Positions 28,998-59,605 of a stretch of 64,000 nucleotides of DNA are shown piece after piece; within the stretch, counting starts at the first letter, position 1, and each line of letters begins with the position of its first letter. Source of the DNA: Acidovorax carolinensis (GTDB lineage: Bacteria; Pseudomonadota; Gammaproteobacteria; Burkholderiales; Burkholderiaceae_C); contig NZ_CP021361.1 in assembly GCF_002157145.1 (NCBI RefSeq), positions 2,597,001 through 2,661,000 on the forward strand. The letters are read 5' to 3'. The translations under genes and the position numbers were made by a program. Below the pieces are notes generated by a model, which was not told the DNA's origin, searched no databases, and saw only the letters and a program-made list of their open reading frames with translations.

Positions 28998-29008
28998 ACC
29001 CGAACCCC

Positions 29009-38495: not shown

Positions 38496-38561
38496 GAAGC
38501 CGCGGCCGGGATCGCGCGAGCCGGCAGCAGCCGGCGAGCGCGTTTCGGAATTTCAGATGAA

Positions 38562-38590
38562 CCACACCGCCCAGCGTTGGGGCGGTGTGG
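38562..38590. terminator. Hairpin between convergent stbC-like and DUF932 genes
   Basis: CCACACCGCCC and GGGCGGTGTGG form a perfect 11-base-arm stem with a 7-base loop. It lies between two convergent genes and could end both transcripts, though neither side has a long U tract. Confidence 0.55.
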
Positions 38591-38602
38591 TGTTGGACCC
38601 GT

Positions 38603-39993: not shown

Positions 39994-40664
39994 GGTGAAA
40001 CTCCTTGCAAGAGCGATCAGCCGGACCCCGATCCGGGCTCCTCAAAGCTGATCCTCTCGCTCGGACTCCCTCGCTCCCGCCCACGGGCGGGCGGGGGGTG
40101 GGCAAGGCCCCTTCCCTCGGGAAGGGGTGGGGGATGGGGAAACCTTGCAGCACGAAACAGTGAGCCAGTCACCTGGCCCACCGCTGAAAGATCCCCCCAC
40201 AAGTCCCCCTCACCTGTGGATGGGGGCGCCGTGGGGGGAGTGCGGTGGGTCCATTGGCGCACGCGCTGCCTGAACCTCTTCGGGCGACCAGCGAAGCGCA
40301 GGCGACCGATTGAACTGAGCGGCGGCGTCTCTGCGGACGGCGTGACACCAAGCGCAGCGACTGGCGCGGCGTTCGAGCCGGTGCGATCACTTCAGGGGTT
40401 CGCTGTCTCCGGTCATCCCAGCGGCCCGGCTTCGGGTTTGGCGGGTGACCGGGGGGACGATCTGGCGGGCGGGATGGGACCACAGCTCAGCGGCGGGAGC
40501 GGACCGAACGTCAGTTCGTCCAGCGGGCTCGTTCCCGCGCAGCGGGAAGGAAACCAGACCGCGATCCCCGGGCACGGGAAAGGACCGCTGGTCGCTGTGC
40601 TTCCGGTGAACACCGGCCATGCTCCGCCCTCCCCTGTGCCCGCGCACAGCGCGCTGATCAACAA
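39994..40664. other. GC-rich non-coding region between ssb and radC
   Basis: About 670 bases with no gene I can support. It is rich in short G and C runs and small palindromes (GCCCACGGGCGGGC, CCCTTCCCTCGGGAAGGGG, CGTTCCCGCGCAGCGGGAAG). A long plus-strand frame crosses it from the antisense of ssb, but its composition looks non-coding. It could hold a leading-region promoter or replication site. Confidence 0.45.
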
Positions 40665-40688
40665 CAAAAAATTGGGGCCGAAGGCCCC
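40665..40688 (-). terminator. Rho-independent terminator of radC
   Basis: On the minus strand GGGGCC-ttc-GGCCCC is followed by AATTTTTT. It lies 6 bases after the radC stop. Confidence 0.85.
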
Positions 40689-40693
40689 AGGGA

Positions 40694-41230
40694 TTACACG
40701 AGGCCAAGCTCGGCCATCGAATTCACCGCGTCGCCCGCCACGATGAAGTGGTCGAGCACCCGCACATCGACCAGCGCCGCCGCCTGCTTGAGCGTCTGGG
40801 TCAGAACTTCGTCGGCCCGTGATGGACGGGCAGCACCACTGGGATGGTTGTGCACCAGGACCAGGGCGCAGCTGTTCCTCAGGAGCGCATCGCGCACCAC
40901 TTCACGTGGGTACACCGATGTCTGGCTCACCGTGCCCCGGAACATCTCGACGTAGTCCAGCACGCGGTTCTGCACATCCAGATGCACTACGGCAAAGACC
41001 TCATGAGGCAGGCTGCCCAGCCGGGCGCGCAGGAAGTCCTTCACCACAGCGGGTGAGTCCATCAGGTCGCTGCCGCGCACCTGGGCGGCTAGCAACTGCT
41101 GCGCCGCCAGCAGCACCTCGTCGGCCTCGGCCGGACGGTACTGACCAGCCACGTCGCGAATGAGCAAACCGCCCGAACCAGCGGGCACCGACAGGAAGGA
41201 ATCGAGGGAAGAAAACAGATCGTGCTGCAT
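40694..41230 (-). CDS. RadC-family JAB-domain protein
   Basis: A 178-aa protein. The JAMM-like metal motif is VHNHPSGAARPSRADE (H-x-H...D), with an upstream glutamate in PHEVFAVVHLD. It lacks the N-terminal HhH of chromosomal RadC, as is usual for element copies. The ATG 41230 follows GGAG at a good distance; the frame is open 16 codons further. The biochemical role of RadC proteins on ICEs is unclear. Confidence 0.88.
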   Translation of the reverse strand: MQHDLFSSLDSFLSVPAGSGGLLIRDVAGQYRPAEADEVLLAAQQLLAAQVRGSDLMDSPAVVKDFLRARLGSLPHEVFAVVHLDVQNRVLDYVEMFRGTVSQTSVYPREVVRDALLRNSCALVLVHNHPSGAARPSRADEVLTQTLKQAAALVDVRVLDHFIVAGDAVNSMAELGLV

Positions 41231-41616
41231 GACCAACTCCAGTGATCGGGCGGGATTGCCCGAGACCGGAACCGGCACGCCGCAGCGCAGCGGTCACAGG
41301 TTCGAAGACGGCCGACCGGCCGCCAGCGCCCACAGGGCGCGCAGACCTTGACGGCGAGAACGGTGTGCAAGGATGAAGGGATCAGCAAGCCAGCCCCACC
41401 AAACCTGCAGGCGTGAGGATGGCAAGCGCAGCGCGCAGGCCGGGACGGCCGGAGGCGTCAGGGATCGGAGCCGAATGGCCGCGACCCACAGGGGCGCGGG
41501 GGTAGCCCGCAGAGCCCGACGGCGGCACGCCGGGACGCAATAACGAAATCGACGCACATCATCTTCGGCAACCAACACCACCGAAGACAATCCATCTAGA
41601 ACAATTCGGACCCACC
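41231..41616. other. Non-coding region between radC and the 412-aa gene
   Basis: GC-rich divergent spacer with no recognised gene. It should contain promoters for radC (minus) and the 412-aa gene (plus). Near the plus-strand start the composition turns AT-richer (41535-41610), and a promoter is likely there though not resolved. Confidence 0.4.
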
Positions 41617-43131: not shown

Positions 43132-44958
43132 CTATTGATCTGCATTCAAGTCGAACTCCAGCCAATCCCTCCCTGACCAAAGAAAGCCGACTTCTTCTTG
43201 TATGGCAGATGCGCCCTTCGGCCGTATAGAAAAGCGTCGACTTTTCCCTGTTGTCTTGAGCGACCAGGTTGCTTGGCAAGTTCCGCATTGGCAGTAGAAG
43301 TCCTGCTGCTGCTGCGCCCGCACGAATCTTGCCTGATGGCCACAAAGCTCAGCAAGAGTTGCGATCTGTTCGATGGCATCCCCGACGGCGTCCTCAACTT
43401 GCGAATTAGCTGAACCTTTGAGTGAAGCCTTCAGTTCGGCTGCTTTCTGAGCATCGACTGGCGCGAGGATCCTGACGTGGGTAGACGAAATAGATTCAAA
43501 CTGTTCCGGCCAAGCCTCGGTTAGCGTTTTGGACGGCGTCGGCAACGGCCCCAGTTTTCGGCCATGACCTTGGAGCAATTGCCGCAACATCCACTCATCG
43601 ATCAACTTCCCCACCTTCTCCACGACATAAAGGTCCAGCGGAGAGACAGGAAGACTCTGCGGCGATGCGACACTGGTTGGCACGCCTGGCCAACACACGA
43701 TACGACCAGGCTCCAGACTCTCACTGATATTTATTGACGCGCCGAACCAGGCAATCGGTACGATCCTCAGGATAGATCCCTGAGACTGAGTTACGACCCA
43801 ATCATGTCCATCACGTCGGAGTACGAAACTCCGTCCCGCCCAACTGAAGATGAAATTTCCATCCACTCTTCGCAGACCATACCGCTCAAGCGCCCGCCTA
43901 ATCACAAGACCAACGTAACTGACGTAAGCCAGTTGCAATTGAAGTTGCCGCGCCAAGCGCTCTTCCGGGGGTAAGAGCCGGTCTTCACGATCATCTTTCA
44001 ACTTCTCCCAAAGCGGGGGCAGATGACGATAGTGCGGGTCGTGGTTGAGAATGTTTGTCCGGTGAACTTGGGCAGGAACCACAGATGCAGGAGGCACCAG
44101 CGAATAAAGCCCCCTTTGCTTCAACCCTCTGATTGCACGCAACTGAGACTCCAAATCGCTGAGGGCGCGCTTTCCTGCCTCCAACTGCATCCCAGTCTTG
44201 TCATCAAGATATGACTCGCCCCAAAGGCGACAAATATCCTGGCGAAGTCGAAAATGCGTCTGCTCAGAGTCCTGGAACTCCAAAGCTCGCTCCAGTCGTG
44301 AATTGACTCCCCGGATGCGAGCCAATCTCCTAGCAAGGTGTCGATCAAGGCGATCTAGTAGCCGCTTGTAGAGCCTGTTCTCATAGATGGCATAGTCGTC
44401 CTCGCTGAAACGTGCAAGAACCTTGCGCGGTTGAACACCACTGAGCGTACGCTGCTGCCAGCAATCAGAGTGTGATGCCAGGTGACTTAATGCCGAAGTC
44501 GCGAGGCGTCGAGCTCGCGCCACTGGCGCAACCAAGTCGTCATATCGAAGGTCTCTGCGGGGGCGGTCAGATATTGAATGCAGATGACCATCTCTGAGTA
44601 CCGCCGCCAAGTCGCGCTCGAGTTCTTCGAGCGCGCATTGGGCGGCCATCTCAGCAGGCAGCATGGGTGAGACATTTGCATCATGTGCGTGAGCGATTTT
44701 TCCGGCAATGGAAATAATCGCCTCTGCAGACAAATCGGAGTCCGCCTGATCGTCGTCAGACTGATAGATGGCGAGCACTTGCGATTCAGTGTCTTGAGTC
44801 CGGATTACGCCCGAGCCGTCATCTGATAGCAGATCACCGGGCTGCAAGCGACTGTGTCCATTGACCACGAGTGGCTCAAGCAAGCAATACCTCCCCGGCA
44901 GAAGCGCGTCGGGTAGGCGGCTGATTTTGCTACCCGTAAGACGGTCCAAAAATATCAT
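43132..44958 (-). CDS. DUF2357/McrC-position partner of the McrB-like ATPase (CnuC-like)
   Basis: A 608-aa protein and last gene of the defence operon. A central helical region (RFSEDDYAIYENRLYKRLL) recalls DUF2357 proteins that pair with McrB-like ATPases. The C-terminus has a zinc-ribbon-like cysteine cluster near 555 (FYCQCGTCQATW). I could not find a clear PD-(D/E)xK nuclease motif. The ATG overlaps the end of the AAA gene (ATGA). In McrBC-type systems the gene after mcrB is the nuclease or effector partner, so McrC-like is inferred from position and the DUF2357-like part. Confidence 0.6.
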   Translation of the reverse strand: MIFLDRLTGSKISRLPDALLPGRYCLLEPLVVNGHSRLQPGDLLSDDGSGVIRTQDTESQVLAIYQSDDDQADSDLSAEAIISIAGKIAHAHDANVSPMLPAEMAAQCALEELERDLAAVLRDGHLHSISDRPRRDLRYDDLVAPVARARRLATSALSHLASHSDCWQQRTLSGVQPRKVLARFSEDDYAIYENRLYKRLLDRLDRHLARRLARIRGVNSRLERALEFQDSEQTHFRLRQDICRLWGESYLDDKTGMQLEAGKRALSDLESQLRAIRGLKQRGLYSLVPPASVVPAQVHRTNILNHDPHYRHLPPLWEKLKDDREDRLLPPEERLARQLQLQLAYVSYVGLVIRRALERYGLRRVDGNFIFSWAGRSFVLRRDGHDWVVTQSQGSILRIVPIAWFGASINISESLEPGRIVCWPGVPTSVASPQSLPVSPLDLYVVEKVGKLIDEWMLRQLLQGHGRKLGPLPTPSKTLTEAWPEQFESISSTHVRILAPVDAQKAAELKASLKGSANSQVEDAVGDAIEQIATLAELCGHQARFVRAQQQQDFYCQCGTCQATWSLKTTGKSRRFSIRPKGASAIQEEVGFLWSGRDWLEFDLNADQ

Positions 44959-47326
44959 GCCTCACGCTCCTTGCGGCGACGGTCTTCAGCCAACAAGGCA
45001 ATGGAACGGCGAGGCTCCGATTTCCACCCCTTCCACACTGTGGTCAGCGCTTGTTCGATGGCGCCAAGATCATCAATGGTCGCATCGTATCTACCAGTGA
45101 CCTTCCCGCGCCTGAATACTCTGCTGGCAAGCAAATGGTCCAGAGCATCCTCTTTGCGACCGCCGGCAGCCATGTAAACAGGGACAAATCGCATGGCCTG
45201 ACGTTCGAGTCGATTGCCCCAACCCAAGTCAAAGCGATCCTGCAAGATGCTCGTGAGCGGGCCCGTGGTCAACTCCGCCAACAACTCTGAAACCTCATCA
45301 GCGTTTTGTGTCACGGCATCATCGAATCGCTCCATCAAAGATCCATAGCTAAAGCTGGCCTTCGGCTTTGGCTCCACCTTGAATCCCGCTTCGTGGCGGG
45401 GAAGCGTCATGACATGAGCACGGTCGTAGGTTTTGTCTGCGAACTCGTTCGTTGTTTCATCGTGGTTAGCAGTGCCTACAAACCAGACGTTGTGGGGAAC
45501 CCGAATCCTTCGCCCCTCGACCAGCAGCGCTGGGGCGTTCGGCAACTGGCTCTCCGACAAACTGATGAGTCGATCTCTTGGGTCATTCTTTTCGAGCGCC
45601 GAGAGGAATTCAGCAAAATACTGCTCCGGGCGCGATAGGTTCATCTCGTCCAGCAAGATGATGTTGCACCGGTCCTTGTAAGCGGCAGTTTGCGCACGGT
45701 AGAGACCTTGCAGGCAGTCGCGCTCGTAGAAGCGCTTTTCGAAAGCGTTGTAGTGCCCCAGTAGATCATCACGGTCTCGCCAGCCAGCCTGGACGGCGAT
45801 GTCGGTGCAATGCCCCCGACAGCCTTTGCAAAGGCCTTCGCCAAGCTTGTTTTGCCTGTGCCGCTGATTCCCTGAAAGATGTGAAGCTGGCTCATGGCCA
45901 ACCCGGCAATAAGCAGCTGAATATCTTCGAGACGGAAATGAAGTGTTGCACCTTCCTCCGCTTGAGCGATCCTGTGCTGCAATTCAACCGAGAATTTTTT
46001 CAGATCAGGAACATCCTGCTCCGGCAGGCTCAGCTCCTTGGCTTTGCGATCCTTGATCCAATCTGCATTGGATGCCGAATCCATCCATGCCATCTGGGGG
46101 AACGGCTTTTCGGACTGCTGAGACTGGGTGAGGTCATCCACAGTTTTACCCAGGTCATTCAGCCTTGCACTCAAAATCTGATTGTTCTTTTCGAGGGCAC
46201 GCTTCTCTTTTTCAAGGTTCTCTTTGTCGCTGACACCGAGACGCAGGCGATGAAGCTGAGCTTTTGCATCAGCTAAGTCCACATGAACCTCATCGAGTTG
46301 AGTCTTTTGCTCATCACGAAGTTTTCGCAGTGCCTCATTCTCAGATTGCAGCTGATCATCTTGACTATTTGCAATGTGATTTTCCAACTGAGTGACTCGA
46401 CGCTTGTGAGCAGCCAAATCGTCAAGAATCTCGCGTGCAGAACGTCCCGCCAATGCTTCTGAGAACTCTCGGTATTGTTCTAGTTTTTGTTCAGTCAAGG
46501 TCCAATCACGGTACACTTTTTCGAGGCGAGACTCAGCTCGTTTTCGGGCCTCCGTCAATCTCGCAATTTCCTGGCTGGCCTCGCGAAGTGCATCTTCACG
46601 GATCTGTGTCCGTTCGCGCTCTAGCTCTTTCCACTCCGCATCTTGCCGTCGTTGTTGCTGCTGAAGACTTCTCTCCTTGTTTGCAATATCCGCTTCCCGA
46701 CCCATCAGTTCGGAGGCGCGCGCAGACTCATCGTCACGTGCTTTTTGCTCTGCTTGAAGGATGCCAAGTTGAATTTCTGTCTTCTTAGACTCCAGCTCCA
46801 CGATCTCTTTTTTTAGGTCACTGAGTGCTGCGACGTTTTGGGCGGCAAAACCGGATCGCGCATCCAGTTCCCGCTTTTCAAGTTCCCGCTCCTTGTCAGC
46901 CAGATTTGATTCAGACTTTTTTATCTCGGCTTGTCTTTGCCTCAACTCATCATCGAGTTTGTGGATTTCTTCGGTTCTCTTTTTGTTCTCATCACTTCGG
47001 CGAGAGAATGCTTCCTCCTTGCGAACCAGGTCTTCCGTGCGCTTCTGTGCATCCTCATGCAACTCACGAACTCTCTTTGCGACATCAGCGACAGCCGCCA
47101 ACAGCTTCTCGAGCTCAACCTTTTTCTCAGGTTCGGCTTTCTCCAATTCGCTGACCTGATCTTTGTCCAGGTCGGGGAGCGCCACGACGGAAGCATCGCT
47201 TTGCACCAGTGATGCAAGGGAGCCAATGCCAGCAGTTGCTTTCTGCCATGCCGATGCGACTGCACTTTGTGTAGCATTCGTGTTTTGCGCCACTGGGGCT
47301 TTGTTCCCCTTATTGTGTTTTGCCAT
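44955..47326 (-). pseudogene. Coiled-coil McrB-like AAA+ protein split by a frameshift (CnuB-like)
   Basis: Two frames together encode one ~790-aa protein. Residues ~60-420 are a long coiled coil rich in Glu, Lys, Arg and Gln. Walker A GISGTGKTS is at 486-494. The frame breaks at ~505 in a run of five Gs (45813-45817), where one missing G would restore AVGG-HCTDIAVQAGWRD and lead to Walker B IILLDEMNLSRPEQYF. VGTANHDETTNEF then matches McrB-like sensor/GTPase signatures. The reading frame after the break ends at 44955. It may be a sequencing error, an inactivating indel, or a slippery run that still yields some full product. Confidence 0.85.
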
Positions 47327-47327
47327 A

Positions 47328-48791
47328 TCAATACCAGCCCTTAAAAATTTGAACCCATTCGATAACGAAATCAGCGTATTCCATTGCTTCGTCTTTGCTT
47401 ATCTTGTCGCCGCCCGCGTGACCGGCCTTCCGATTTCTCGCGTCAGCCATGTCCAATATTCGATCCAAGGCAAGAACTTGGGGGGAAAGATCCTTGAGAG
47501 GATGTGTGGCGTGCTCAATCGTGGAAAGCAGCGCGGCAAACATCAACGCCTTTAATGAACTATTACCTCGAACAAGCGCATTCCGAATCTCTCTCAAATT
47601 CTGCGAAGCCAGTCGCCTAACTGTGTCATCGGTGAGTTGGGCCGCTGGGAGTGTTCGTAGAATTTCCGAAGCTAGATCCTTCGTCCAATTCTTGTCCTGG
47701 CTCCGATCGGGCAATCTACGGACGTCCACTGGAAATCTCTTCAACAACCATTGAAAAACACTCTCGGCGAGGTTGTGAGTCTCAATCAGCAAACTGGTCA
47801 AATCTTCCTGCCAAGTTTTATCTTGGGAGGCCAACAGTGCGTTCCTGCGCAGCACACTGGTCAAGTACCCTGAAATAGCAGGCACTTTGCCAGACCAGCT
47901 GTAATCTGCCAGCACAGTTAAATCGATCTGGTTCTCAAGAGACCGCAGCCACTCCTCTGCCGACAATTCATTCGATCGCGTCTCACCCACTGCGTCAGCG
48001 ATGTAGCGTGCCAGACCCTCGTTACGAGGCAGGACTTCCTGCAATGGCTTGCGCAACCATGATGCCGCCTGCTGAAGACCGAAAGGGTCGGCAACCAGCC
48101 AGGGTTGTGGCCCGGCCTCGTCTGGAAAGATCCACGTCCACAACCACATCGGCTGCCCCGAATCCTCGACAAAGCTCAGGCTCTCAATGCGGACACGTGT
48201 CGGAAGTTCATCATCACGCTGCTTGGCGTGGTCGTGATCCGTCCGATAGCGCTCGAACGCATCAAATAGCGCCCCCATGTCCAATGCACCTTCCCGGAAA
48301 TGATTTAGGCGGAACGGTCGATCTTCCTTTCCGGAATCCAGATCACGCAGGAATATCGGATAACCACGTTCATCGATTCGCCTCGCTTCAATTTCAGGAA
48401 GTTCTTCAGTGAATCTCGGCAACCAGTTGCCTGAGATCGCGTCCTGATACGCGTATCCCATTCGGACTTCCTCGCTGGCGTCCTGAGTCTCTTCGAGAAC
48501 ACGCTCACCTTGAGTAGTAACGGCACCTAAGGTAGTCATCCAGCCGTTGGGGATCAGCTGTGTGGCAATGATGAACACCACGAGCTCCCGGTCCAGCCCC
48601 AGCAGTGCCGCCATTTCCGAGCTGTCCTGGCATCGAGCCCGTGCAAGTCCAAGGATCGCCTGCTGGAACAGATTCAGCTTCAGTACACGCTTTGTTGGAT
48701 AGAGAACCTTCCAAACTCGAACAGGCCACAGAAACGAACGCCCACCAGGGGGACGACGCGCATCAAAGCGGAGATAGCGATCAGCGACCAT
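47328..48791 (-). CDS. Protein with C-terminal HEPN-like RNase motif (CnuE-like)
   Basis: A 487-aa protein. The N-terminal ~110 residues suggest a winged-helix (VLKLNLFQQAILGLARA ... GWMTTLGAVTTQGERVL). The C-terminal helical domain ends with ARNRKAGHAGGDKIS, where R452-x5-H458 fits the HEPN R-x4-6-H catalytic motif. A helix then follows (DEAMEYADFVIEWVQIF), as in HEPN folds. It could be an RNase effector. It overlaps the helicase gene by 11 bases and precedes the McrB-like gene by 1 base. The HEPN call is by motif and context only. Confidence 0.62.
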   Translation of the reverse strand: MVADRYLRFDARRPPGGRSFLWPVRVWKVLYPTKRVLKLNLFQQAILGLARARCQDSSEMAALLGLDRELVVFIIATQLIPNGWMTTLGAVTTQGERVLEETQDASEEVRMGYAYQDAISGNWLPRFTEELPEIEARRIDERGYPIFLRDLDSGKEDRPFRLNHFREGALDMGALFDAFERYRTDHDHAKQRDDELPTRVRIESLSFVEDSGQPMWLWTWIFPDEAGPQPWLVADPFGLQQAASWLRKPLQEVLPRNEGLARYIADAVGETRSNELSAEEWLRSLENQIDLTVLADYSWSGKVPAISGYLTSVLRRNALLASQDKTWQEDLTSLLIETHNLAESVFQWLLKRFPVDVRRLPDRSQDKNWTKDLASEILRTLPAAQLTDDTVRRLASQNLREIRNALVRGNSSLKALMFAALLSTIEHATHPLKDLSPQVLALDRILDMADARNRKAGHAGGDKISKDEAMEYADFVIEWVQIFKGWY

Positions 48792-51700
48792 TTGCCATAT
48801 CCTCCCTGCAAAGCTTTAGGAAAGCATTCAGAGCTGGGACGGCTTCCTCGGACTCAGGACATTCAGCCATGCCTTTGTCACCAACGGCAACAAGGAGCTT
48901 TCTCTGGCGGCTCATCGCCACATTTAAGCGGTTTGCCAGGCGCAAGTGGCCGTACTTACCATTTAGCAATCGTTCACGCTCACTCCCGTCCTTTTGATCG
49001 GAAACGGTTGAGTCGTTAGCTCGCACGATCGACAGGAAGACGAGATCAAACTCTTTGCCTTGGAAAGCGTCGACCGTGCCAACGCGCAGGCGCTCATCAC
49101 CTGACTCAGTTTGCCGGTAGGATCTTGCGATCCGGATTTCACCGTCCTCCTCCTCGGCAAGGCCTTGGTCGGCGAAAGCGTCAAGAATTAGGTCACATTG
49201 AGCGCGGTAAAAACTAATGACGCCAATACTCAATGTCGGTCCACAAGAATCTGTTATCCGCTTGACTTCTTTTGCAATAGCAATTGCCTCAGATCGTCTT
49301 TCATAGCCGGGTTTTAGAAATTTTTCTTTCCCGTCCTGCAGAGGCACATCCAACCAAGCAGCACATTTGCCTTGGTAGCCAGGAATCGTGTGGGCGAAAT
49401 CCTGTGCGGGTCGCCCTGAGTGCAAAACGTCCAGTCCCACAGATTCATAAAACTGCTTGCTGATGAAGTCACCCAGAGTCGGATGCATTCTGTACTGCGT
49501 ATCGAGCATCACGACGCGCTTGATGTTGTCAACTTTCTCCTGCTCCCTAAGCTGTTTCACCAACCGCTCAAAAAGACTCTGCTCATACGCCTTTGCTTGA
49601 GCCTCAGTCAGGCTTTGCCTGGAAATGAGTTCATCTTCCAACTCTCGCTGAACAAGGTGAGGTAGCTGTCGATGGTCGCCAACTAGGATGATGCGACGCC
49701 GCGCCATCGCCATGGGAACGAAGAGATCGAGAGGGTTTGCTCTCGCCGCTTCGTCAATGACAACCGTGTCGAACTCAATTCCTTCTGATGCATCTAGATC
49801 GCTCAACTCCTTCAAACTGCTCATCGCCTTACCAGCTGACTGTTGGCATGTCGCACCGACAATGCTGGCGTACTCGCGGACCGCTCTCGCTGCCTCATTG
49901 GGGGACTGGGCAAGCGCCGCGTGGTACGAGGCCACTACCGCAGAGATGCCACGGCGTGATTGGCGCAAAGGCGCGGCGATTGCGCACTCGATATCGGCCA
50001 AGAGACCAAGTGCTTCTCCACTCAACGCCTGCTTCAGCTGCGGGGGCCTGTAGTCGGGGCTCAGTCGATCCAGCATGGCCCGCTTAAAGGCAGCCAATTC
50101 AGATAGGTCTGCCTCCGTAGCGTCGGCAACCGTTGAAAGTCGCTGGAGCAACATCCACTCGGACTCTTCGAGTTTGACTCCGCCACGTAGCAGAGTGCGC
50201 TCAAGCTGATGAGCTCTGTCCGGGCCGTCATCGGAGAAGCCGATGTGGCTGGTGCGCAGAGCCCGGAGCAATCGCACAAGCCCAGCGGGCTCGTTGGCCT
50301 GACGCTGGGTTTCAACTCGTTTCTGCTGAGCCAGGAACTCATCCCACCGATCTTTAATATTGGCCGGGAGACGAACATCCAGAGCGAACAACTGGTGCAA
50401 CAAAAGATCAATTTGCTCGAACTGTGTTTGGCGTTCCTGTGCCGACAAACTTGCGAGTCTCAATGCTGTGACCCGCCGATCAAGCTCTTTCAAGGGCTGA
50501 GTCAGGGGCTCGTTCAGCTGAATCGCATCGAGTCGAACGGCGATTTCCTTTCGTTTGCGTTCACACCAAACACCAACGGGGTCGACGCCGCCTTCGTCAC
50601 GACGCCCTCGGCCGCCAATGCGAACAGCAGGCAAGCCAAAGACTTCAGCACGATTAAGGGCGTTATCGACGGCGTCGTGCTGGTAACTACTGATCAGCAC
50701 TTGGTGCTGCAGCGAGTTTTCACCTAGTGTTTCGGCAAGGCGACGCTGCAAAGCAGCAATGACCTGGGTCTTTCCCGTTCCTGGTGGACCAACGATAAGC
50801 GCGATATCAGGTGTGTTTATCGCCTTCTCCAATGCCTCAATCTGGCGCTTTGTTGGAGCACCCTTAAAGCAAGCTTTGGCGTAGGCGGATAAGCCATCGA
50901 GTTGACGCCGTCGGGCGCTTGGCGGTGCAACCCCTTCCAGCAGGTAGCTCAATTGCGGCAATCGGCGTCCATCATTGATGGATTGCCTTGCACGCGCACG
51001 ACGGGTCTGTACAGCTTCGTCACCTGATAGAGAGTAGTAGATGAAGCCCTTGGCTGGTGGCCGTTCCGAGCGCCGGTCCTGGCTTGGAATCAAGACAACG
51101 CCGTCTTTCTCAAACCGCAATACCCCTCGAACTGGGCGACGCCGTGCCCGGTCGCCTTTCTCCGGTGTGTCTTCAACTTCGGAATCAAGATCGAGTTCTT
51201 TCTCACCAAGTTCTACTTGTGTTGTGGCTGATAAACCCAGGGTTTTCCATCGTTTTCGGAAATCCTTCAGGTGGTCAACATCAACTTTTAGAAACCATGC
51301 CCAGAGCTCACCCTCGATGAGATCCGCGTTCTTGAACCGAAGAGAGCCAAGCTCTCGCGCGCAATCTCTTGCCTGTTCCCATTCAAGCGCGCCGTATTCC
51401 TGCCATAGGCGCAGGTAGCTTCCGTTGTCGCGAAGTGCAGCATCCAGGAGTGCGCGCTGCTCTGTACTCTGGAGCCGAACGGCGACACTGGCATCTTGGA
51501 AAGAGATCTTGCCTACGGCCATCGCCACACGTGCATTAGTACCCTTGAGACGTGTGACGCTCATCAGTCTCAGCACGCCCGCATCTCGTTTGACGGTGCC
51601 TCGCCACCCCGCTCCAAACAGAACGAAACCTTCATCGGAAACGTTGTCGAAGCGACCAAGAAAGACACGATCCATTTCGGCGGTCGCCGCGTCATCAGCA

Positions 51701-52095
51701 GCGATGAATTGATCTGTCAACCAATCCACGGCCGCCTGTACGTCCGGTGCGGAAATCACACCCCTACTGGCCAATTGCTCCGCAATGGCCTCATCAACAG
51801 AAATCGCCATATCCAACTGGATCTGCTCGACCAAATCCAACGATTGAAGGTGGAGAACCTTTTCGTGTCGATTTCTTAAGACCCACAGTGTCAAGCCACG
51901 CTGCACCCGAATCGCAGTTCGATCTTGGCTTCCGACTACTTTGCCGACGCAGACGAAATCCCCCTGACGGAGAAGATAGTCATTGCCGTGTGCCTGCACT
52001 GATACTGCCTCGCCGATCTGCCAATCAGCATCCAAGTCGTCACAAGAGAATTGGACAAGTTCACTCGATAGGAGAGAAAAATCGCAGAGTTTCAT
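48781..52095 (-). CDS. UPF1/DNA2-like SF1 helicase (CnuH-like)
   Basis: An 1104-aa protein. The N-terminal ~350 residues include several small beta-rich segments, possibly OB folds. Walker A IVGPPGTGKTQV is at ~435. Motif II is VVIDEAARANP near 778, with GDHRQLPHL following. Motif V/VI region is VGTVDAFQGKEFDLVFLS and NVAMSRQRKLLVAVGD near the C-terminus. These define an SF1B UPF1-like helicase acting on RNA or DNA. It begins 7 bases after the kinase gene. Confidence 0.9.
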   Translation of the reverse strand: MKLCDFSLLSSELVQFSCDDLDADWQIGEAVSVQAHGNDYLLRQGDFVCVGKVVGSQDRTAIRVQRGLTLWVLRNRHEKVLHLQSLDLVEQIQLDMAISVDEAIAEQLASRGVISAPDVQAAVDWLTDQFIAADDAATAEMDRVFLGRFDNVSDEGFVLFGAGWRGTVKRDAGVLRLMSVTRLKGTNARVAMAVGKISFQDASVAVRLQSTEQRALLDAALRDNGSYLRLWQEYGALEWEQARDCARELGSLRFKNADLIEGELWAWFLKVDVDHLKDFRKRWKTLGLSATTQVELGEKELDLDSEVEDTPEKGDRARRRPVRGVLRFEKDGVVLIPSQDRRSERPPAKGFIYYSLSGDEAVQTRRARARQSINDGRRLPQLSYLLEGVAPPSARRRQLDGLSAYAKACFKGAPTKRQIEALEKAINTPDIALIVGPPGTGKTQVIAALQRRLAETLGENSLQHQVLISSYQHDAVDNALNRAEVFGLPAVRIGGRGRRDEGGVDPVGVWCERKRKEIAVRLDAIQLNEPLTQPLKELDRRVTALRLASLSAQERQTQFEQIDLLLHQLFALDVRLPANIKDRWDEFLAQQKRVETQRQANEPAGLVRLLRALRTSHIGFSDDGPDRAHQLERTLLRGGVKLEESEWMLLQRLSTVADATEADLSELAAFKRAMLDRLSPDYRPPQLKQALSGEALGLLADIECAIAAPLRQSRRGISAVVASYHAALAQSPNEAARAVREYASIVGATCQQSAGKAMSSLKELSDLDASEGIEFDTVVIDEAARANPLDLFVPMAMARRRIILVGDHRQLPHLVQRELEDELISRQSLTEAQAKAYEQSLFERLVKQLREQEKVDNIKRVVMLDTQYRMHPTLGDFISKQFYESVGLDVLHSGRPAQDFAHTIPGYQGKCAAWLDVPLQDGKEKFLKPGYERRSEAIAIAKEVKRITDSCGPTLSIGVISFYRAQCDLILDAFADQGLAEEEDGEIRIARSYRQTESGDERLRVGTVDAFQGKEFDLVFLSIVRANDSTVSDQKDGSERERLLNGKYGHLRLANRLNVAMSRQRKLLVAVGDKGMAECPESEEAVPALNAFLKLCREDMANGR

Positions 52096-52102
52096 CGTTG
52101 GC

Positions 52103-53530
52103 TCACCAGTTGAAACGCCATACGACGTGCTCTTCTTCTACTGCCCCTAGATGGAGCCAGAAAGACACACCTGAACGACTTTCTGATTTAAGCCGCTGTC
52201 GACGCGCAACGGCTACGACTTTGTCGTCAGATGCTCTCTGCAAGGAAACTCGCGCACCGGCGGAGGGCTCTATCCACAACCCATCCTTGGCAAGTTGAAC
52301 CGTACATAGCGGACTCGCATCCGCGTACAAGGACGTTCCCAAGGGCAAGGTTTTCAATTCGGCTGGGCTCACGCTTAACACCAGGGCCTTACCTGTGCGA
52401 GTCCAGCACTCCTTGCGAATCAACGACTCAGGAACATCCTCCGTCAAGCCCTCCCGGAGCAGCTCGGGCGGCATATAGCGATATTCCTGCAGCAGGATCG
52501 TCCGATTCTTGTCCTGAGCGTGATCACAAAATGGACAAGTCTGTTTTGGGGTGTAGAAGAACGTACTGCCACAGGACTCGCATTGATCGCAATGACCTGT
52601 GGCAGCCTCGAAGGCATCAGCCCATTCACTCAGACTAGGTCGCTCACCTGGACTATTCAGCCCCGCATTGAAGCATCGTTCAAACAACGCACGCAGTGGC
52701 GCGTTGAGCGTGATCTCGCGTGGCAGACCAATCGACAAGGCATTGCTGCGATCAACTGGGTGATCTACCCAAGGGAGTTCGCCACGGAGAGCCGCCTCTT
52801 CACGCTCCGGCTCACCTTCAAGGACAACGTCTCCCTTGAGTGGGTGAACCAGCGTGAGGATGCGATATGCCATGACCGCAAAACTCCAACTGTCTGTCAG
52901 CGTATTGATGCCAGTCTCCCCCCGGAGAATCTCGGGTGCACCGTAATCAGGAGTGAAGACGCCTTGCTGACCATCACGCGACTGACTCGCAACGTTGTCG
53001 GCATCGATTAACCAGACTTCGGCGTACTCTAGTGATTGCGATGCGAAGACATTTGCAGGGGAGAGATCGCCATAGGCCAATCCACGCCCATGCAACTGAG
53101 CCAACACCCGCGCCAGTCGCGCTAGCATCTTCAACCTACGCAGCAGGCCACCTGTCTTCACATAGCCTGAGAGGCCGTCATCAGACATCAAGGAGTCAGT
53201 CGCCACCTGCATCAGCTCAGTCATTGGGGCCAACCCATCCATCAACTCCATCACGTAACCGGGCTGCGGCTGCGTGATGAGGGCCAACGGATGTGCTATC
53301 GGAAGACCTTCAAGTGGCTGGCGCATAAGTGCGCGGATCTTGTTCGTCCAACTGGCTCGTTTTTCTTCTGTGGTTGCTCGCGCAACTTTGACGAGAACGT
53401 TGGGGTAGTTGGTCGTGCAGACGATTCCCTGCCCACCTTCGCCGATGCGACCTGTCAACTCATAGGACTGACCATGTTGGTCTAGCACCGTCCTGTTTTT
53501 CTTCGGTGCTTCTGCTGTTGTTGTGCTCAT
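52103..53530 (-). CDS. Ser/Thr kinase with zinc ribbon, TerY-P triad
   Basis: A 475-aa protein. The kinase domain covers ~20-300. The glycine loop is GRIGEGGQG, the lysine in VLVKVA, the catalytic loop LAYGDLSPANVF (D and N present; the HRD position reads YGD) and the metal motif LIDADN in place of DFG. A zinc ribbon follows (CDQCESCG ... CPFC, ~318-340). The C-terminal region is beta-rich, perhaps an OB fold. Kinase + PP2C + VWA defines the TerY-phosphorylation triad. It overlaps the phosphatase gene (ATGA). Confidence 0.88.
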   Translation of the reverse strand: MSTTTAEAPKKNRTVLDQHGQSYELTGRIGEGGQGIVCTTNYPNVLVKVARATTEEKRASWTNKIRALMRQPLEGLPIAHPLALITQPQPGYVMELMDGLAPMTELMQVATDSLMSDDGLSGYVKTGGLLRRLKMLARLARVLAQLHGRGLAYGDLSPANVFASQSLEYAEVWLIDADNVASQSRDGQQGVFTPDYGAPEILRGETGINTLTDSWSFAVMAYRILTLVHPLKGDVVLEGEPEREEAALRGELPWVDHPVDRSNALSIGLPREITLNAPLRALFERCFNAGLNSPGERPSLSEWADAFEAATGHCDQCESCGSTFFYTPKQTCPFCDHAQDKNRTILLQEYRYMPPELLREGLTEDVPESLIRKECWTRTGKALVLSVSPAELKTLPLGTSLYADASPLCTVQLAKDGLWIEPSAGARVSLQRASDDKVVAVARRQRLKSESRSGVSFWLHLGAVEEEHVVWRFNW

Positions 53531-54231
53531 TCGGACGTCCTAAATATGGTCACCAGTGTCTTGTCGTCGCTGTGCAAGGGGGTCGCCCAGTCGCTCAATT
53601 CAGACTGCAGCCAGCGTCTGCCTCGGCGACGATTCCGAGTGCTTAGGTCTTGATAAAGCGCATCAAAGAACTCTGCGAGTTGGGCTGGCTCGAGATCATC
53701 GGCCACGCCATCTGTCATCAGGACAACACCATCACCTGGCTCGGTGAGTCGACCGAATGTGGTGCTCCATTTGTCCTGCACGTGATTGGACTCAAGTGCC
53801 CACGTCTGATTGCTATAGGCTGTTCGGTCTGGTGTGACGCGACGAAACTGGCCAGCGCATCTCACAAGCAGCAAACCGTCACCCAGTTGAGCTGCATGGA
53901 AATCGCCCTCAGCTGTCACGCGACCGAACAACAGCGTTGTTGCAGCGTCTCTTGGGGTTGTCGGCTCAATGGCTTCGAGCCATTGCTGATGAATCAATGG
54001 CAGCGTTGTAGGCAGATTGAAGCTGCTCGATGCGGCGCGCAAAATCTGTCGGGAAATCTGGCAGGCATTACGTGCCCCCAGATCACTACGTGCTCGAGAT
54101 CCCAGTCCGTCAGCCACGGCCGCAATCCAGCCGCCCCGCCAGCCAGATAAAGCCATCGCGTCCTGGTTAGGCTCGCCCAGTTCTAGGTGTCGGGGGCCGA
54201 TGACGCTCGCGCCGCAGGCAATAAACCTCAT
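53527..54231 (-). CDS. PP2C-type protein phosphatase, TerY-P triad
   Basis: A 234-aa PPM-family phosphatase. Metal-binding motifs are visible: NQDAMAL at ~28, VADGLGS at ~41, LMTDGVADD at ~175 and SDDKTLV at the C-terminus. It should reverse phosphorylation by the neighbouring kinase. It is coupled to both neighbours by four-base overlaps. Confidence 0.9.
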   Translation of the reverse strand: MRFIACGASVIGPRHLELGEPNQDAMALSGWRGGWIAAVADGLGSRARSDLGARNACQISRQILRAASSSFNLPTTLPLIHQQWLEAIEPTTPRDAATTLLFGRVTAEGDFHAAQLGDGLLLVRCAGQFRRVTPDRTAYSNQTWALESNHVQDKWSTTFGRLTEPGDGVVLMTDGVADDLEPAQLAEFFDALYQDLSTRNRRRGRRWLQSELSDWATPLHSDDKTLVTIFRTSE

Positions 54232-55046
54232 TGGAAGTCGAGGTCCAATGCGTCGTCATCCGGCGGCGGGACAACGAAGGTGGTTGAGAGGTCTGGATTT
54301 TGGCTTGCAGTGCGAGTGGTGACGCTCATGGTCACCGCTCGGAAGAAACGATGGATGTCCCGGGCGTTGTGTGCCTTGAAAATGGGCGCTTCTGCGTCGT
54401 TTGCAAAATCCCTCAGCATGGCTTCGTCGGCATCTGGGCCAATTGCCATTGCAAGCCGGGTTGCTTTTTGCGCCCGCTCGGAATCGCAGAGAGCCTTGAA
54501 GGGAACCTCCCAGTCGTCGGTCGGCTGCCCATCAGACAAAAGGATCAAGACGGGGCGGTAGGCTCGAGAGGGGATGCGATCCTTGTCCTCCAGCAGTTGA
54601 CGGGCGAGGTCAAATGCAGCACCCATCGGTGTCACCCCTTCGGCCTTCAATTCCGCAAACCCCGCGACGCTGTGTGCCGCAGCCAGCGGTAGGTGCATCT
54701 GAGCCTTGCCGCCGAAGGTGATCAAGCCCACTTGGATCTCGGCGCGCAAACGACTTTCCTTGGCGAAAGTCGAGACCATGTCCTTCATCGCAGCATTTAG
54801 CGCTTCGATCTTGCCGTTCTCCCCCATGCTCCCACTTGTGTCAGCCAAGACGATCACGGGGAGAGGCCGGGGCGTGGCGACAGCGAATTTTTTGAGACTG
54901 CTCATCTTCTTTGTCCTTTGATCAGGTTGATTTTTCGTATTCGGGCTTGGAGTCTTGGGTGATGAAACCGGCGCCTTGATGGAACGCATCGCGAGATCGC
55001 CGACGTTTCGGCTCACAATGTCTTCTTGGTATTTGGCAAACCCCAT
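54228..55046 (-). CDS. TerY-like VWA protein, first gene of the defence operon
   Basis: A VWA-domain protein with an intact MIDAS: DTSGSM, the threonine of VTPMGAAF and LLSDGQPTDD. I start at ATG 55046 because GGAG lies 9 bases upstream and the sigma-54 promoter would begin transcription just before it. That gives a 48-residue N-terminal extension, probably disordered after MGFAKYQEDIV. An internal ATG at 54905 with AAGGA upstream would give the usual TerY-type start (MSSLKKFAVATPRP). TerY-P VWA proteins are thought to scaffold phosphorylation signalling. Confidence 0.85.
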   Translation of the reverse strand: MGFAKYQEDIVSRNVGDLAMRSIKAPVSSPKTPSPNTKNQPDQRTKKMSSLKKFAVATPRPLPVIVLADTSGSMGENGKIEALNAAMKDMVSTFAKESRLRAEIQVGLITFGGKAQMHLPLAAAHSVAGFAELKAEGVTPMGAAFDLARQLLEDKDRIPSRAYRPVLILLSDGQPTDDWEVPFKALCDSERAQKATRLAMAIGPDADEAMLRDFANDAEAPIFKAHNARDIHRFFRAVTMSVTTRTASQNPDLSTTFVVPPPDDDALDLDFQ

Positions 55047-55062
55047 GACCCAGTCTCCAGTT

Positions 55063-55084
55063 CATAAAAGTTCTTATGCTTATG
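55063..55084. repeat. TTATG half-site cluster at the operon promoter
   Basis: CATAA at 55063, TTATG at 55074 and TTATG at 55080 lie within 22 bases, at the predicted start point of the sigma-54 transcript. The same half-site recurs three times upstream of the activator gene (56602-56626). Confidence 0.5.
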
Positions 55085-56597
55085 CACCATCCGTGCCAGC
55101 TTTTTTGGGCTGGTACTTGAGCAACCAATTCGTCAGGGTTTGGTAACTGCCAAGATCCAACAGCTTCGCTGCCTCAGTCTTGTTGCCACGACTCTGCTCC
55201 ATAGCTCTATCCAGGTAGTGTCGAGCCACATCTGCCATCAGATCAGGCAGTGAGAACCCCTCGCCAAGTGACGCTCCAAGAATGGCATCGTCTGTGCCGG
55301 TGGATGTGAGCGAGAGAACCTCATCGATATCCTTGGCTGCTATTTCCTCTCCTGGCGCCCAGATGGATGCCCTCAAAAGCGCGTTGTGCAGCTCCCTCAC
55401 ATTGCCCGGCCAGGCGTGACGAAGAAGAAGATTTCTTGCACTAACAGACAAGGTCTTATGTTTGAAGCCCGGCTGTGAAGTTGCTTCGCGGTTGATCTGC
55501 GCCAGCAAAGCGTCGACCAATAGATTGAGGTCCCCTTCGCGAGCGCGCAGGGGAGGCAATGCCAAGATGCCAACAGCGATTCGATGAAACACATCCTCTC
55601 TGAATCGCCCCGCCCGAACTTCTTCCGGAAGAACCCGGTTGGTAGCGGCGACTATGCGCACATCGATTTTTCGGGACTTACTGGCCCCCAGGCGCGTCAC
55701 TTCATGCTCCTGGAGTACGCGCAGAAGTCGAACCTGTGACTGCAGGGGCAGTTCACCGATTTCGTCCAAAAAAAGCGTTCCGCCATCGGCCGACTCAAAG
55801 TAGCCAGCACGGGTTGTATGGGCACCGGTGAACGCGCCCTTCTCATGACCAAACAGTTCGGAATCGATCAACTCGAGAGGGATGGCCCCGCAGTTGACCG
55901 CGACAAAGGGCGCATCTTTTCGCTTGCTGGAAGCGTGGATCGCACGTGCGAAGAGTTCCTTGCCGGTCCCGGACTCCCCTTGGATCAATACGGGCAGATC
56001 CCGTTGGGCCAATCTCTGCGCCATCGCGACTACGCGCTTCATTGCACTGCAGCGATGGATGATGTTGCCGAACTCCGGCGCAGCAGGCGGCAACCCCTGC
56101 ACAAGGTGCGCCAGCGCCTCGTCAGCCGCCTTGCTTGCAACAGGAAGAAACTCAGCAGCCAGGTCGAATGGAACAACGACAGGACGCACGCCGTGTTCAC
56201 GAGAGGATTCGATGAGACTGGCCCCGTACTTGGCTTTCGCCAACAGCACCCAGACAGCAGCCATGGCAGGGGTGCCAGGGCTCACGTGAAAAGTGAACGG
56301 CAGTTCAGGAGAAGAAGTGAGCGTCGCGGACACCGCTCCGTTGGCTGCAACGTATATATCTTCGAAATCAGTGGGGCTTCGCAGTTTTGCGTACCGCACC
56401 TCTGTAGCCCCCGTGAATTTGCCGCTCAGCCACGCCACGAAGTTCTGCGTTTTCTGCAGCCCGTGATCTGACAGGAGCACTAGACGGTGATACACCCCGG
56501 TCTCCAGCGCCATCAAGATGGGACCGAAGTCTGTGCCCGACGCATCCTCCGAGGCGCGGAGGTCTGAATTACCAAGCCAGGCAAAAAGTGCGGACAT
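55080..56597 (-). CDS. RtcR-like sigma-54 activator with N-terminal CARF-like domain
   Basis: A 505-aa bacterial enhancer-binding protein. The N-terminal ~170 residues resemble RtcR: DFEDIYV parallels DFEEVYA, and FHVSPGTPAMAAVWVLLAKA parallels the TTGT...WFLLAEA segment; RtcR carries a CARF domain. The AAA+ core has Walker A QGESGTGKE, the sigma-54-contacting GAFTGA loop, Walker B LFLDEIGE and arginine-finger region. A Fis-type HTH ends the protein (NKTEAAKLLDLGSYQTLTNW). It probably activates the operon that follows when an RNA-end or cyclic-nucleotide ligand binds the CARF part. No strong RBS is visible at ATG 56597. Confidence 0.9.
   Translation of the reverse strand: MSALFAWLGNSDLRASEDASGTDFGPILMALETGVYHRLVLLSDHGLQKTQNFVAWLSGKFTGATEVRYAKLRSPTDFEDIYVAANGAVSATLTSSPELPFTFHVSPGTPAMAAVWVLLAKAKYGASLIESSREHGVRPVVVPFDLAAEFLPVASKAADEALAHLVQGLPPAAPEFGNIIHRCSAMKRVVAMAQRLAQRDLPVLIQGESGTGKELFARAIHASSKRKDAPFVAVNCGAIPLELIDSELFGHEKGAFTGAHTTRAGYFESADGGTLFLDEIGELPLQSQVRLLRVLQEHEVTRLGASKSRKIDVRIVAATNRVLPEEVRAGRFREDVFHRIAVGILALPPLRAREGDLNLLVDALLAQINREATSQPGFKHKTLSVSARNLLLRHAWPGNVRELHNALLRASIWAPGEEIAAKDIDEVLSLTSTGTDDAILGASLGEGFSLPDLMADVARHYLDRAMEQSRGNKTEAAKLLDLGSYQTLTNWLLKYQPKKAGTDGA
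55082..55098 (-). promoter_or_regulatory. Sigma-54 (-24/-12) promoter of the defence operon
   Basis: On the minus strand 55098 to 55082 reads TGGCACGGATGGTGCAT. GG and GC are separated by exactly 10 bases and the match to TGGCACG-N4-TTGCW fails at one position. Transcription would start near 55072, ~26 bases before the VWA ATG at 55046. The site lies inside the last codons of the activator gene. The presence of a sigma-54 activator next to it strongly supports the call. Confidence 0.85.
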
Positions 56598-56936: not shown

Positions 56937-57053
56937 TGTTGGCGCCGACCGAAAACTGAGCCACTTTTGAGGGTAGTGCCGACCCAAAACTGAGCCAGGT
57001 GAACAACTTAATCTGCTGCTTTTTTGTGCAGCAGAGGACAAGGAGTGATCACC

Positions 57054-58598
57054 ATGGACATGATTGGCAGGATCCGGCATTTGTATGCCCGCAAGAACAA
57101 ATCGGAGCGCGAGATATCGCGCATGACAGGGCTATCGCGCAACACGGTGGCGAAGTGGCTGCACGGCGAGGTGGACGGCCCACCGAGGTACCGCCGCAGC
57201 GAACAGCCCAACAAACTGACGGCGTTTCATGACGCGCTCATGCTGGCCTTGAAGGCCGATGCACGGCGGCCCAAACACGAGCGGCGCACGGCCAAGGCGC
57301 TGTACGCCGAGATCAGGCAAGCGGGCTACGAAGGGGGTTACACGCGGGTGACCGACTTCATCCGGGCGTGGCGCCAGAGCGAGGGTCAGGGGGCGGCCGT
57401 CAATGCCTTCGTGCCGCTGGCCTTCGAGCTGGGAGAGGCTTTCCAGTTCGACTGGAGCGAGGAAGGCATGGTGATCGGCGGCATCTACTACCGGGTGCAG
57501 GTCTCGCATATGAAGCTGTGTGCTTCGCGGGCCTTCTGGCTGGTGGCGTACCCCAGCCAGGGTCACGAGATGCTGTTCGATGCCCACACCCGATCGTTCG
57601 CCGCGCTGGGCGGCGTGGCACGCCGGGGCATCTACGACAACATGAAGACCGCTGTAGACAAGGTCAAGAAGGGCAAGGGACGCATCGTCAACGAGCGCTT
57701 TGCCACCATGTGCGCGCACTACCTCTATGACCCGGACTTCTGCAACGTGGCCAGCGGCTGGGAGAAAGGGGTGGTGGAGAAGAACGTGCAGGACAGCCGC
57801 CGACGCATCTGGATCGACGCGGCGCAGATCAAGTTCGGCAGCTTCACCGAACTCAACGCCTGGCTGGGCCAGCGCTGCCGCGCGTTGTGGGACGAGGTAC
57901 GCCACCCCGAGCACAAGCAGTTCAGCGTGTCGGAGATGCTCGAACACGAGCGGGCGCACCTCATGCCCATGCCGCTGCCCTTCGACGGCTACGTCGAGAA
58001 ACCCGCGCGGGTTTCCAGCACCTGCCTGGTGTCTGTGGCGCGCAACCGGTATTCGGTGCCGTGCGAACGCGTGGGCCAGATGGTGAGCACGCGGCTGTAC
58101 CCGGGCCGCGTGGTCATCGTGGCCGATGATGAGGTCATCGCCCGCCACGAACGTCTGAGCAACGCGGGCGAGACCCGGTACGACTGGCAGCACTACATCC
58201 CGCTGCTGCAGAGAAAGCCCGGGGCGCTGAGAAACGGAGCGCCCTTTGCGGACATGCCCGAGCCACTGCAGCGGCTGCGCCGCGGGCTATTGCGTAACCC
58301 GGGAGGCGACCGGGTGATGGCGCAAGTGCTGGCGATTGTGCTTGGCGCCGGTCTGGACGCGGTGCTGGTGGCCATCGAGCTGGCGCTGGAGAGCGGTGCG
58401 CCAGGCAAGGTGAGCGTGGAGCATGTGGTCAACGTGCTGAGCCGGCTCAACGCGCAGCCGGCACCTCCCACGGCGGCCACACGGCTGAAGGTGACAACGC
58501 CACCGCTGGCAAACACGGCCCGCTACGACAGCCTTCGGGCCGACACCGCGGACAGTGCCGTGGGCGCCACCACCGAAGGAGCCCGCCATGAAGACTGA
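57054..58598 (+). CDS. istA: IS21 transposase IstA, copy 2
   Basis: A 514-aa DDE transposase with the same HTH and catalytic motifs as copy 1 ([25 protein letters not shown]). Start ATG 57054 behind AAGGAG; a start 10 codons upstream is possible. Confidence 0.95.
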
Positions 58599-59409
58599 TG
58601 TGCTGGTCGAACTCAAGGCGCTGCGCCTGCACGGCATGGCCGGTGCCTGGGCTGATCTGGTCGAGCAAGGCGGTGGCGATGGCGGCGGCCTGGGCATCGA
58701 GACCTCGCGCTGGCTGATCGAGCACCTGCTGCAGGCCGAGGGCACGGACCGGGCGATGCGCTCGATCAGCCACCAGATGCACGCGGCGAAGTTCCCGGTG
58801 CACCGGGACATGGCGGGCTTTGACTTCTCGGTCTCGCCGGTGGACCGAAAGCTCGTCACCACGCTGGCCGGCACTGCCTTTACCGACGAGGCGCACAACG
58901 TGGTGCTGGTGGGCGGCCCGGGCACGGGCAAGACCCATCTGGCCACTGCCATCGGCGTCTCGGGCATCACCCGCCATGGCAAGCGGGTGCGGTTCTACTC
59001 CACGGTCGATCTGGTTAACGCACTGGAGCAGGAGAAGGCGCAGGGCAAGGCCGGTCGCATCGCCACCAGCTTGCTGCGCATGGACCTGATCATCCTGGAC
59101 GAGCTGGGTTATCTGCCGTTCAGCCAGGCCGGCGGGGCGCTGCTGTTCCACCTGCTGAGCAAGCTGTACGAACACACCAGCGTGATGATCACGACCAACC
59201 TGGACTTCGCCGAATGGTCCAGCGTGTTCGGCGACGCGAAGATGACCACCGCGCTGCTGGACCGTCTCACGCACCACTGCCACATCGTGGAGACGGGCAA
59301 CGAGTCGATCCGGTTCAGCCGCAGCACGGCCGCTGCGAAGAAGCGGATCAAGGCCCGGGAACAGGACCGAAAGAGTGCCTCAACGCAGGCTGAGCCCGAC
59401 CCATTCTGA
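58588..59409 (+). CDS. istB: IS21 helper ATPase IstB, copy 2
   Basis: A 273-aa AAA+ ATPase identical to copy 1, with Walker [11 protein letters not shown] and Walker [11 protein letters not shown]. The start overlaps the istA stop by 11 bases. An inverted repeat (GGGCAAGCCGC / GCGGCTTGCCC) follows the gene at 59424-59462. Confidence 0.95.
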
Positions 59410-59605
59410 GCAGGCACCGCGCAGGGCAAGCCGCTACGGGCTACGCCCTTCGCGGCTTGCCCAGCGCCTTCAACACATCAGCAAGGAGATCAGCAAACCA
59501 GGATAGCACCTACACTTATCCACAGCCGACCCTTGAAACGTCGGCTTCCACCCCTGGCTCAATATTCAGTCGGCACGGTGGCTCAGATTTGGATCGGCGC
59601 CGACA

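Follow-up and report, generated by a model that had tools for sequence, protein, structure and literature searches.

A Type II CoCoNuT operon of Acidovorax carolinensis with a conserved predicted sigma-54 promoter at the end of its rtcR-like activator gene

The locus at positions 43132–56597, on the minus strand of a 64,000-nucleotide stretch of Acidovorax carolinensis contig NZ_CP021361.1 (hereafter the window, from whose start all coordinates are counted), is a Type II CoCoNuT with an RtcR-type regulator. This arrangement has already been published and the window holds another instance of it; what is new here is a conserved predicted promoter at the end of the regulator gene, which makes testable a regulation proposed earlier from gene order. 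Sequence comparisons lead us to consider it probable, with good confidence, that this Type II CoCoNuT is a defence operon controlled by a sigma-54 switch of its own, which is gated by a CARF domain. The cnuB gene of the operon is frame-broken in the assembly, and this copy may no longer work.

Results

Read from 56597 to 43132, the genes encode a sigma-54 activator, a VWA protein, a PP2C phosphatase, a kinase, a helicase, a protein of 487 aa, an AAA+ protein with a coiled coil and, last, a protein with DUF2357. The activator, VWA, PP2C, kinase, helicase and DUF2357 parts were identified with Pfam, NCBIfam and PADLOC, and the HEPN half of the 487-aa protein by structure comparison; all the parts named in a preliminary description of this DNA, which was made from the sequence alone, were located. 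That description had counted nine genes. Nine open reading frames (ORFs) are indeed present, but they represent eight genes, the McrB-like gene being split over two frames here and forming one ORF in relatives. The compact spacing it had noted was borne out, as neighbours overlap or are separated by no more than 7 bases, with the exception of a 33-base gap between the activator and VWA genes. The activator said to head the series does lie upstream, but the operon probably begins only after it, since a predicted sigma-54 promoter sits between it and the VWA gene. The suspected CoCoNuT affiliation was supported and can be specified as Type II, because the gene set matches that of Type II with an RtcR homologue in the available text of PMC11090510. 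The tested features of every protein fit the Type II counterpart.

The predicted -24/-12 promoter (TGGCACG-N4-GTGCA, 55083–55098, minus strand) overlaps the last codons of the rtcR-like gene. With 16.2 bits, the 16-mer at 55098 was the top one on both strands of the whole window (runner-up, 15.6 bits), and its position is kept in L002, L004 and L005 (loci used for comparison bear L numbers). The frequencies in the sigma-54 matrix were approximate, and a matrix-free mismatch count agreed with it. The recurrence of the site was scored in a stretch that starts 30 bases ahead of the rtcR stop codon and ends 400 bases past it, the controls being the antisense strand of this stretch and, upstream of the gene, a stretch of 430 bases. 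RtcR matches below 300 bits or lacking the CARF part (including L006, L020, L039, L108 and L114) and duplicates (L106 in the first set of loci; L132, L139 and L141 in the second) were dropped before counting. Both sets taken together, sites of at least 12 bits were found downstream of 33/36 RtcR-like genes, against 1/36 in the antisense control and 1/36 in the upstream control. The first set, consisting of 26 non-duplicate loci, contributed 23 positives downstream, one antisense and none upstream, and its median best scores were 14.6, 5.7 and 5.3 bits, respectively. Counting mismatches to the pattern TGGCACGN4TTGCW, with GG and GC obligatory, gave two or fewer downstream in 22 of the 26 loci, antisense in one and upstream in none, against a background of 69/2526 intervals of the same size from the same loci, target stretches included. 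All ten genes of the second set, which were fetched later, had a downstream site at 12 bits (none antisense, one upstream); four of them, from Pseudomonas or Stutzerimonas, resemble one another.

Of the 23 positives of the first set, 15 had the start of the site no more than 25 bases ahead of the stop codon or 10 bases past it, and eight had it at +26 to +272. Every site of the second set began 2–9 bases past the stop. RtcR-like genes have the site this close to the stop codon more often than generic sigma-54 activators do. Where the RtcR-like gene precedes a VWA gene, the site was present at 12 bits in 12/13 cases (L003 is the miss, and L107 has intervening genes). Among the dropped loci, L108 had 16.3 bits at +116, L114 had 14.0 bits at +113 and L020 had 14.8 bits; L006 and L039 had none above 6.6 bits.

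A palindrome, CATAA-N6-TTATG (55063–55078, minus strand), is a weak candidate for the binding site of the regulator. It was enriched relative to shuffled sequences, with no mismatch in 4/26 loci versus 0.2% of the shuffles and at most one mismatch in 7/26 versus 2.5%, the pattern having been chosen by eye on two of the 26 loci scored. Conservation at four-fold sites was followed along rtcR, where it might betray a hidden enhancer. It did not peak clearly towards the 3' end; two bins at 315–405 bp from the end of rtcR were elevated, in non-independent pairs, and no enhancer is claimed from them.

The activator gene itself (55080–56597, minus strand, 505 aa) encodes a CARF-like N-terminal domain, a sigma-54 AAA+ domain and a Fis-type helix-turn-helix (HTH). 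The best PADLOC match was RtcR_PspF2--CARF_AAA_HTH (E 5.6e-197), and Pfam returned Sigma54_activat (1.4e-70) and HTH_8. The features of a bacterial enhancer-binding protein were all found, namely the AAA+ domain with its GAFTGA loop, visible in the alignment, the Fis HTH, and RpoN encoded in the genome of the host. The Pfam RtcR domain reached only 15.1 bits, under its cut-off of 23.1, and hence the activator looks like a branch apart from the RtcR of RNA repair. No match to RtcB or RtcA was obtained at E 0.001 in the same genome, so that the RtcR-like protein, if it works at all, must sense without them.

A genome scan matched at least 590 stretches, with at least 327 relatives of the helicase, and the best 80 loci were kept. 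All seven genes downstream of the activator were matched in 24 of these 80, and in all 24 they had the same order and strand; one or more gene matches were missing from the other 56, and none of the best 80 carried all seven genes in a different order. Gene order, which the preliminary description had singled out as a check, is thus conserved in relatives, and beyond chance. Twelve loci, the window and two plasmids among them, had an RtcR-like gene of at least 300 bits upstream in the same orientation within the fetched flank. In the Type II loci L007, L009, L010, L011, L015, L017 and L048 an RtcR-like gene lies about 10–21 kb upstream on the same strand, as placed from coordinates on the assumption that the contig numbers refer to the same records. 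The plasmid unnamed2 of Rhodoferax antarcticus (NZ_CP019242.1) has the same eight genes, the same order and the same promoter position, the best segments being 63–89% identical. Among 60 genomes of near kin, CnuC was found in one, the window's own. Megablast returned no DNA-level relatives on plasmids, and one scan of viral contigs with CnuC alone, able to detect close relatives only, found none.

The cnuB gene is present in two pieces on the minus strand. The first (45641–47326) encodes the coiled coil, over which NCBIfam SMC models match, and the Walker A motif of an McrB-like GTPase, its tail being out of frame; the second (44955–45656) encodes Walker B, the NxD motif (NHDE in the window) and the lid, and shares 96% identity with the corresponding part of L004. 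The reading frame shifts immediately 3' to the Walker A codons, hence between Walker A and Walker B. At this point a one-base length change separates the window from the R. antarcticus plasmid, whose cnuB, unlike that of the window, is one ORF of 788 codons; further length differences between the two lie nearer the start of the gene, where both frames stay open. In 27/27 relatives (those matching the second half with at least 180 bits) cnuB was whole and had the NxD motif. Since the profile of full-length CnuB retrieved coiled-coil type proteins but not McrB from the Protein Data Bank, the AAA+ part was searched alone, and McrB structures then came on top (6hz4, E 4e-5; 6ut6; 7vsr), the next match having an E value of 0.02. 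This places the AAA+ protein in the McrB family, as had been supposed in the preliminary description. Compared with L004, the nonsynonymous (dN) and synonymous (dS) divergences were 0.047 and 0.456 for the first piece (dN/dS 0.10) and 0.028 and 0.597 for the second (dN/dS 0.05), and all genes, both pieces included, are under purifying selection (dN/dS about 0.05–0.23). Because the two pieces are under such selection and none of the seven other genes is interrupted, the break is either very recent or a sequencing error.

The remaining genes, all on the minus strand, were assigned as follows. The genes of the TerY-P triad, which is usual but not core in Type II CoCoNuT, encode a TerY-like VWA protein (54228–55046, 272 aa; Pfam VWA 5.3e-14, with the MIDAS residues DTSGS...T...D read in the translation), a PP2C phosphatase (53527–54231, 234 aa; PP2C_2 6.6e-42) and a Ser/Thr kinase with a C-terminal zinc ribbon (52103–53530, 475 aa; Pkinase 6.8e-12). 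The zinc ribbon (CxxCxxC...CPFC) was read by eye in the translation, Pfam zinc-ribbon matches being sub-threshold only. The cnuH gene (48781–52095, 1104 aa) encodes a UPF1-like superfamily 1 helicase (Pfam AAA_11/AAA_12; PADLOC MkoA 2.2e-93), and its match to the NCBIfam IGHMBP2 family was below the cut-off of that model. The cnuE product (47328–48791, 487 aa) has a winged helix and, by fold, a single HEPN-like half with the motif RNRKAGH at residues 452–458, whose histidine is invariant across 24 aligned sequences. The motif has the form R-x5-H in the window, L002, L004, L005, L014 and L033, and R-x4-H in most other CnuE proteins; the window form is one residue longer than the RxxxxH given in the available text of PMC11090510. 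The cnuC gene (43132–44958, 608 aa) encodes a DUF2357/McrC-like protein (25.6 bits; cut-off 23.3), the AlphaFold model of which had a pLDDT of 88.8, with McrC chains among the top rows of the structure comparison. In 38 CnuC sequences, examined for the inactivated PD-(D/E)xK domain and the zinc ribbon expected of a Type II CnuC, Cys539 and Cys561 were invariant and Cys558 nearly so, no lysine was invariant or nearly invariant, and a nuclease fold was not isolated. Foldseek alone gave no match with E of 0.001 or lower for CnuC or CnuE.

RtcR-like genes followed by the site were also found before Type I restriction operons, where hsdR or a DEAD/DEAH-box gene replaces the VWA gene. The next large gene is a Type I hsdR in L103–L105 and L109–L112; in L115 and L117, plasmids from Vitreoscilla and Pseudomonas luteola, the annotation gives a DEAD/DEAH-box helicase gene at this place, with methyltransferase and S subunit genes after it. 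The site lies 0–7 bases past the regulator stop in these operons, and no CoCoNuT gene was present in the stretch fetched for any of these loci. L112 has, in addition, a DruH-like gene. Since CoCoNuT and Type I genes both follow rtcR and the site, the same predicted switch heads different DNA- and RNA-restriction operons. Not far short of an even chance, in our estimation, is the broader proposal that rtcR and the sigma-54 promoter at its stop codon or close to it form a self-contained, portable sensor-switch cassette, placed before CoCoNuT, Type I restriction or Type I plus Druantia III genes, that would keep them silent until RNA is damaged, independently of RtcA and RtcB.

Upstream of rtcR lies an IS21-family element with istA and istB (56937–59605, plus strand), which is an exact inverted copy of a second element at 32631–35299 (minus strand), each of 2669 bp. 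The pair brackets the CoCoNuT and pieces of mobilisation genes, and recombination between the two copies would invert 21.6 kb. When the 25-base flanks were inspected by eye for a composite transposon or an inversion, no clear target duplications were seen. Mobility-type genes at 35243–41278 (a relaxase-like piece, a NikA-like piece, DUF932 and RadC) suggest an integrated mobilisable element. Beside the upstream IS21 copy there is a kinase fragment (59717–60106; Pkinase 28.2 bits, below the cut-off), perhaps the remainder of a gene cut by IS21; in L115 a leucine-rich-repeat kinase gene likewise adjoins rtcR. A Type I restriction operon occupies 25545–32653 on the plus strand (hsdR, hsdM, a YhcG-type PDDEXK gene and hsdS), the last codons of the hsdS ORF falling within the IS21 copy. 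Its hsdR product has DUF4145 and EcoEI_R_C, a pair also present in 4/6 hsdR scanned from RtcR-headed loci, and this likeness suggests that the Type I operon and the CoCoNuT may be parts of a broken-up RtcR superoperon.

Discussion

The window locus has in common with the Type II CoCoNuT with an RtcR homologue, as described in the available text of PMC11090510, the gene set, the coiled-coil NxD GTPase, the single HEPN, the TerY-P triad and the upstream RtcR-like activator; it differs in its frame-broken cnuB and in having the regulator directly before the VWA gene. The main text of that paper, as available, uses the word promoter once, meaning internal RtcR-independent promoters, and describes no sigma-54 site; nor was such a site at the end of rtcR found in the accessible part of the open-licence literature on CoCoNuT and RtcR. 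With the RtcR of the rtcBA RNA-repair operon the activator shares the CARF-AAA+-HTH plan and sigma-54 activation, but its CARF part is below the Pfam cut-off, its genome gave no rtcA or rtcB match, and its presumed target is a defence operon. The preliminary description knew of no experimental work on such an arrangement; phage resistance of a Pseudomonas aeruginosa Type II CoCoNuT has meanwhile been reported, and according to the available text of PMC12735699 every system cloned into PAO1 except JukAB, CoCoNuT Type II included, clearly resisted at least one phage.

Most likely, RNA-damage signals would lift the CARF brake and the operon would be turned on from the predicted promoter at the end of rtcR. 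Judging from the E. coli and Salmonella proteins, rtcR would be transcribed alone at a low level and the CARF domain would keep the AAA+ motor off; in the available text of PMC9650030 the CARF domain of E. coli RtcR is repressive. RNA cut during infection or by another system would then offer 2',3'-cyclic-phosphate ends to the CARF domain, by analogy with Salmonella RtcR, whose CARF domain binds 5' tRNA halves with a terminal 2',3'-cyclic phosphate before RtcR oligomerises (PMC7790460, as available). CoCoNuT-linked RtcR homologues have been proposed to respond to such RNA ends, and, as HEPN cleavage itself yields them, a positive loop is possible, an idea that comes from the same source (Bell et al. 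2024, eLife, PMC11090510, as available). RtcR would oligomerise and open RpoN polymerase at the promoter at the end of its own gene, a site predicted from sequence and conservation. From their domains, the VWA, PP2C and kinase proteins may form a phosphorylation switch acting on CnuH-CnuE (helicase-HEPN) and on the McrBC-like CnuBC, which would find and destroy RNA. The frame break in cnuB, which falls between the Walker A and Walker B motifs, may cripple this last step in the window's genome.

The broken cnuB leads to the most serious of the alternatives, namely that the locus is a decayed relic in which cnuB broke recently and protection was lost, leaving the regulator, the TerY-P triad and the helicase-HEPN pair, which might or might not function in the absence of CnuBC. 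The frame change is found in the window only, all 27 relatives being intact, and the two identical IS21 copies that bracket the region, with pieces of mobility genes adjoining, point to a recent disturbance; the strong purifying selection on both cnuB pieces and the seven other open genes argue against it. We regard a relic as quite possible, although we lean against it. The overlap of the two pieces and the conservation of the second could also be read as programmed or slippage-based frameshifting that yields two forms of CnuB, but with this arrangement in 0/27 relatives and no visible selection for two forms, such frameshifting is very improbable.

As regards the switch, rtcR might be the plain first gene of a constitutive operon, its sigma-54 activity serving other targets. 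It is on the same strand as the VWA gene with the 33-base gap between them, and a TAGAAT box (-10-like), recognised by eye, is common to the window, L002 and L004 upstream of rtcR. The predicted sigma-54 site, however, tops the window and recurs near the rtcR stop in distant lineages, and a constitutive operon therefore seems unlikely to us. Hardly more credible than the frameshifting is a split Mokosh type I in place of a CoCoNuT. Mokosh type I (MkoA, MkoB) shares with the locus a kinase, a UPF1-like helicase and a winged-helix effector protein; the first part of a single PADLOC MkoA profile matches the kinase and the remainder the helicase, and the MkoB profile matches the N-terminus of CnuE, in 17 of 24 CnuE proteins. 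Kinase and helicase are separate genes here, however, each matching part of MkoA; the MkoB match in CnuE ends at profile position 190 of 610, and the remaining part of that profile retrieves different proteins, which we take to be PLD nucleases. CnuE ends instead in a HEPN, and McrBC-like genes are present together with the TerY-P phosphatase and VWA. A link between MkoB and CnuE was not found in the accessible part of the open-licence literature on Mokosh and CoCoNuT.

Several observations weigh against a Type II CoCoNuT controlled by its own sigma-54 switch. Three of the 36 RtcR-like genes lack the site, L003 with 8.3 bits, L024 with 5.6 and L113 with 4.7. Generic sigma-54 activator loci also had a strong downstream site in 5/6 cases, at +154 to +220, so that to have such a site nearby is normal for an activator gene. 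The RtcR-like gene is downstream of the CoCoNuT in L033 (same strand, 36% identity) and on the opposite strand in L024, and the genome of L022, one of 13 searched, had no full-length RtcR match. Neither palindrome scoring nor conservation along rtcR revealed a clear enhancer site. E. coli RtcR requires RtcA and RtcB (PMC9650030, as available), neither of which was found here, and the ligand step may thus differ. Finally, with cnuB broken in the assembly, the window copy may be dead.

From gene order and the biology of RtcR, it was proposed in PMC11090510, in the text available, that the CARF activator turns on RtcR-linked CoCoNuTs. The -24/-12 site, conserved immediately behind the activator gene and ahead of both CoCoNuT and Type I restriction operons, would be the physical switch for that proposal. 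This layout permits a sequence search for defence operons controlled by RtcR, and the signal that induces an RNA-targeting defence system becomes testable.

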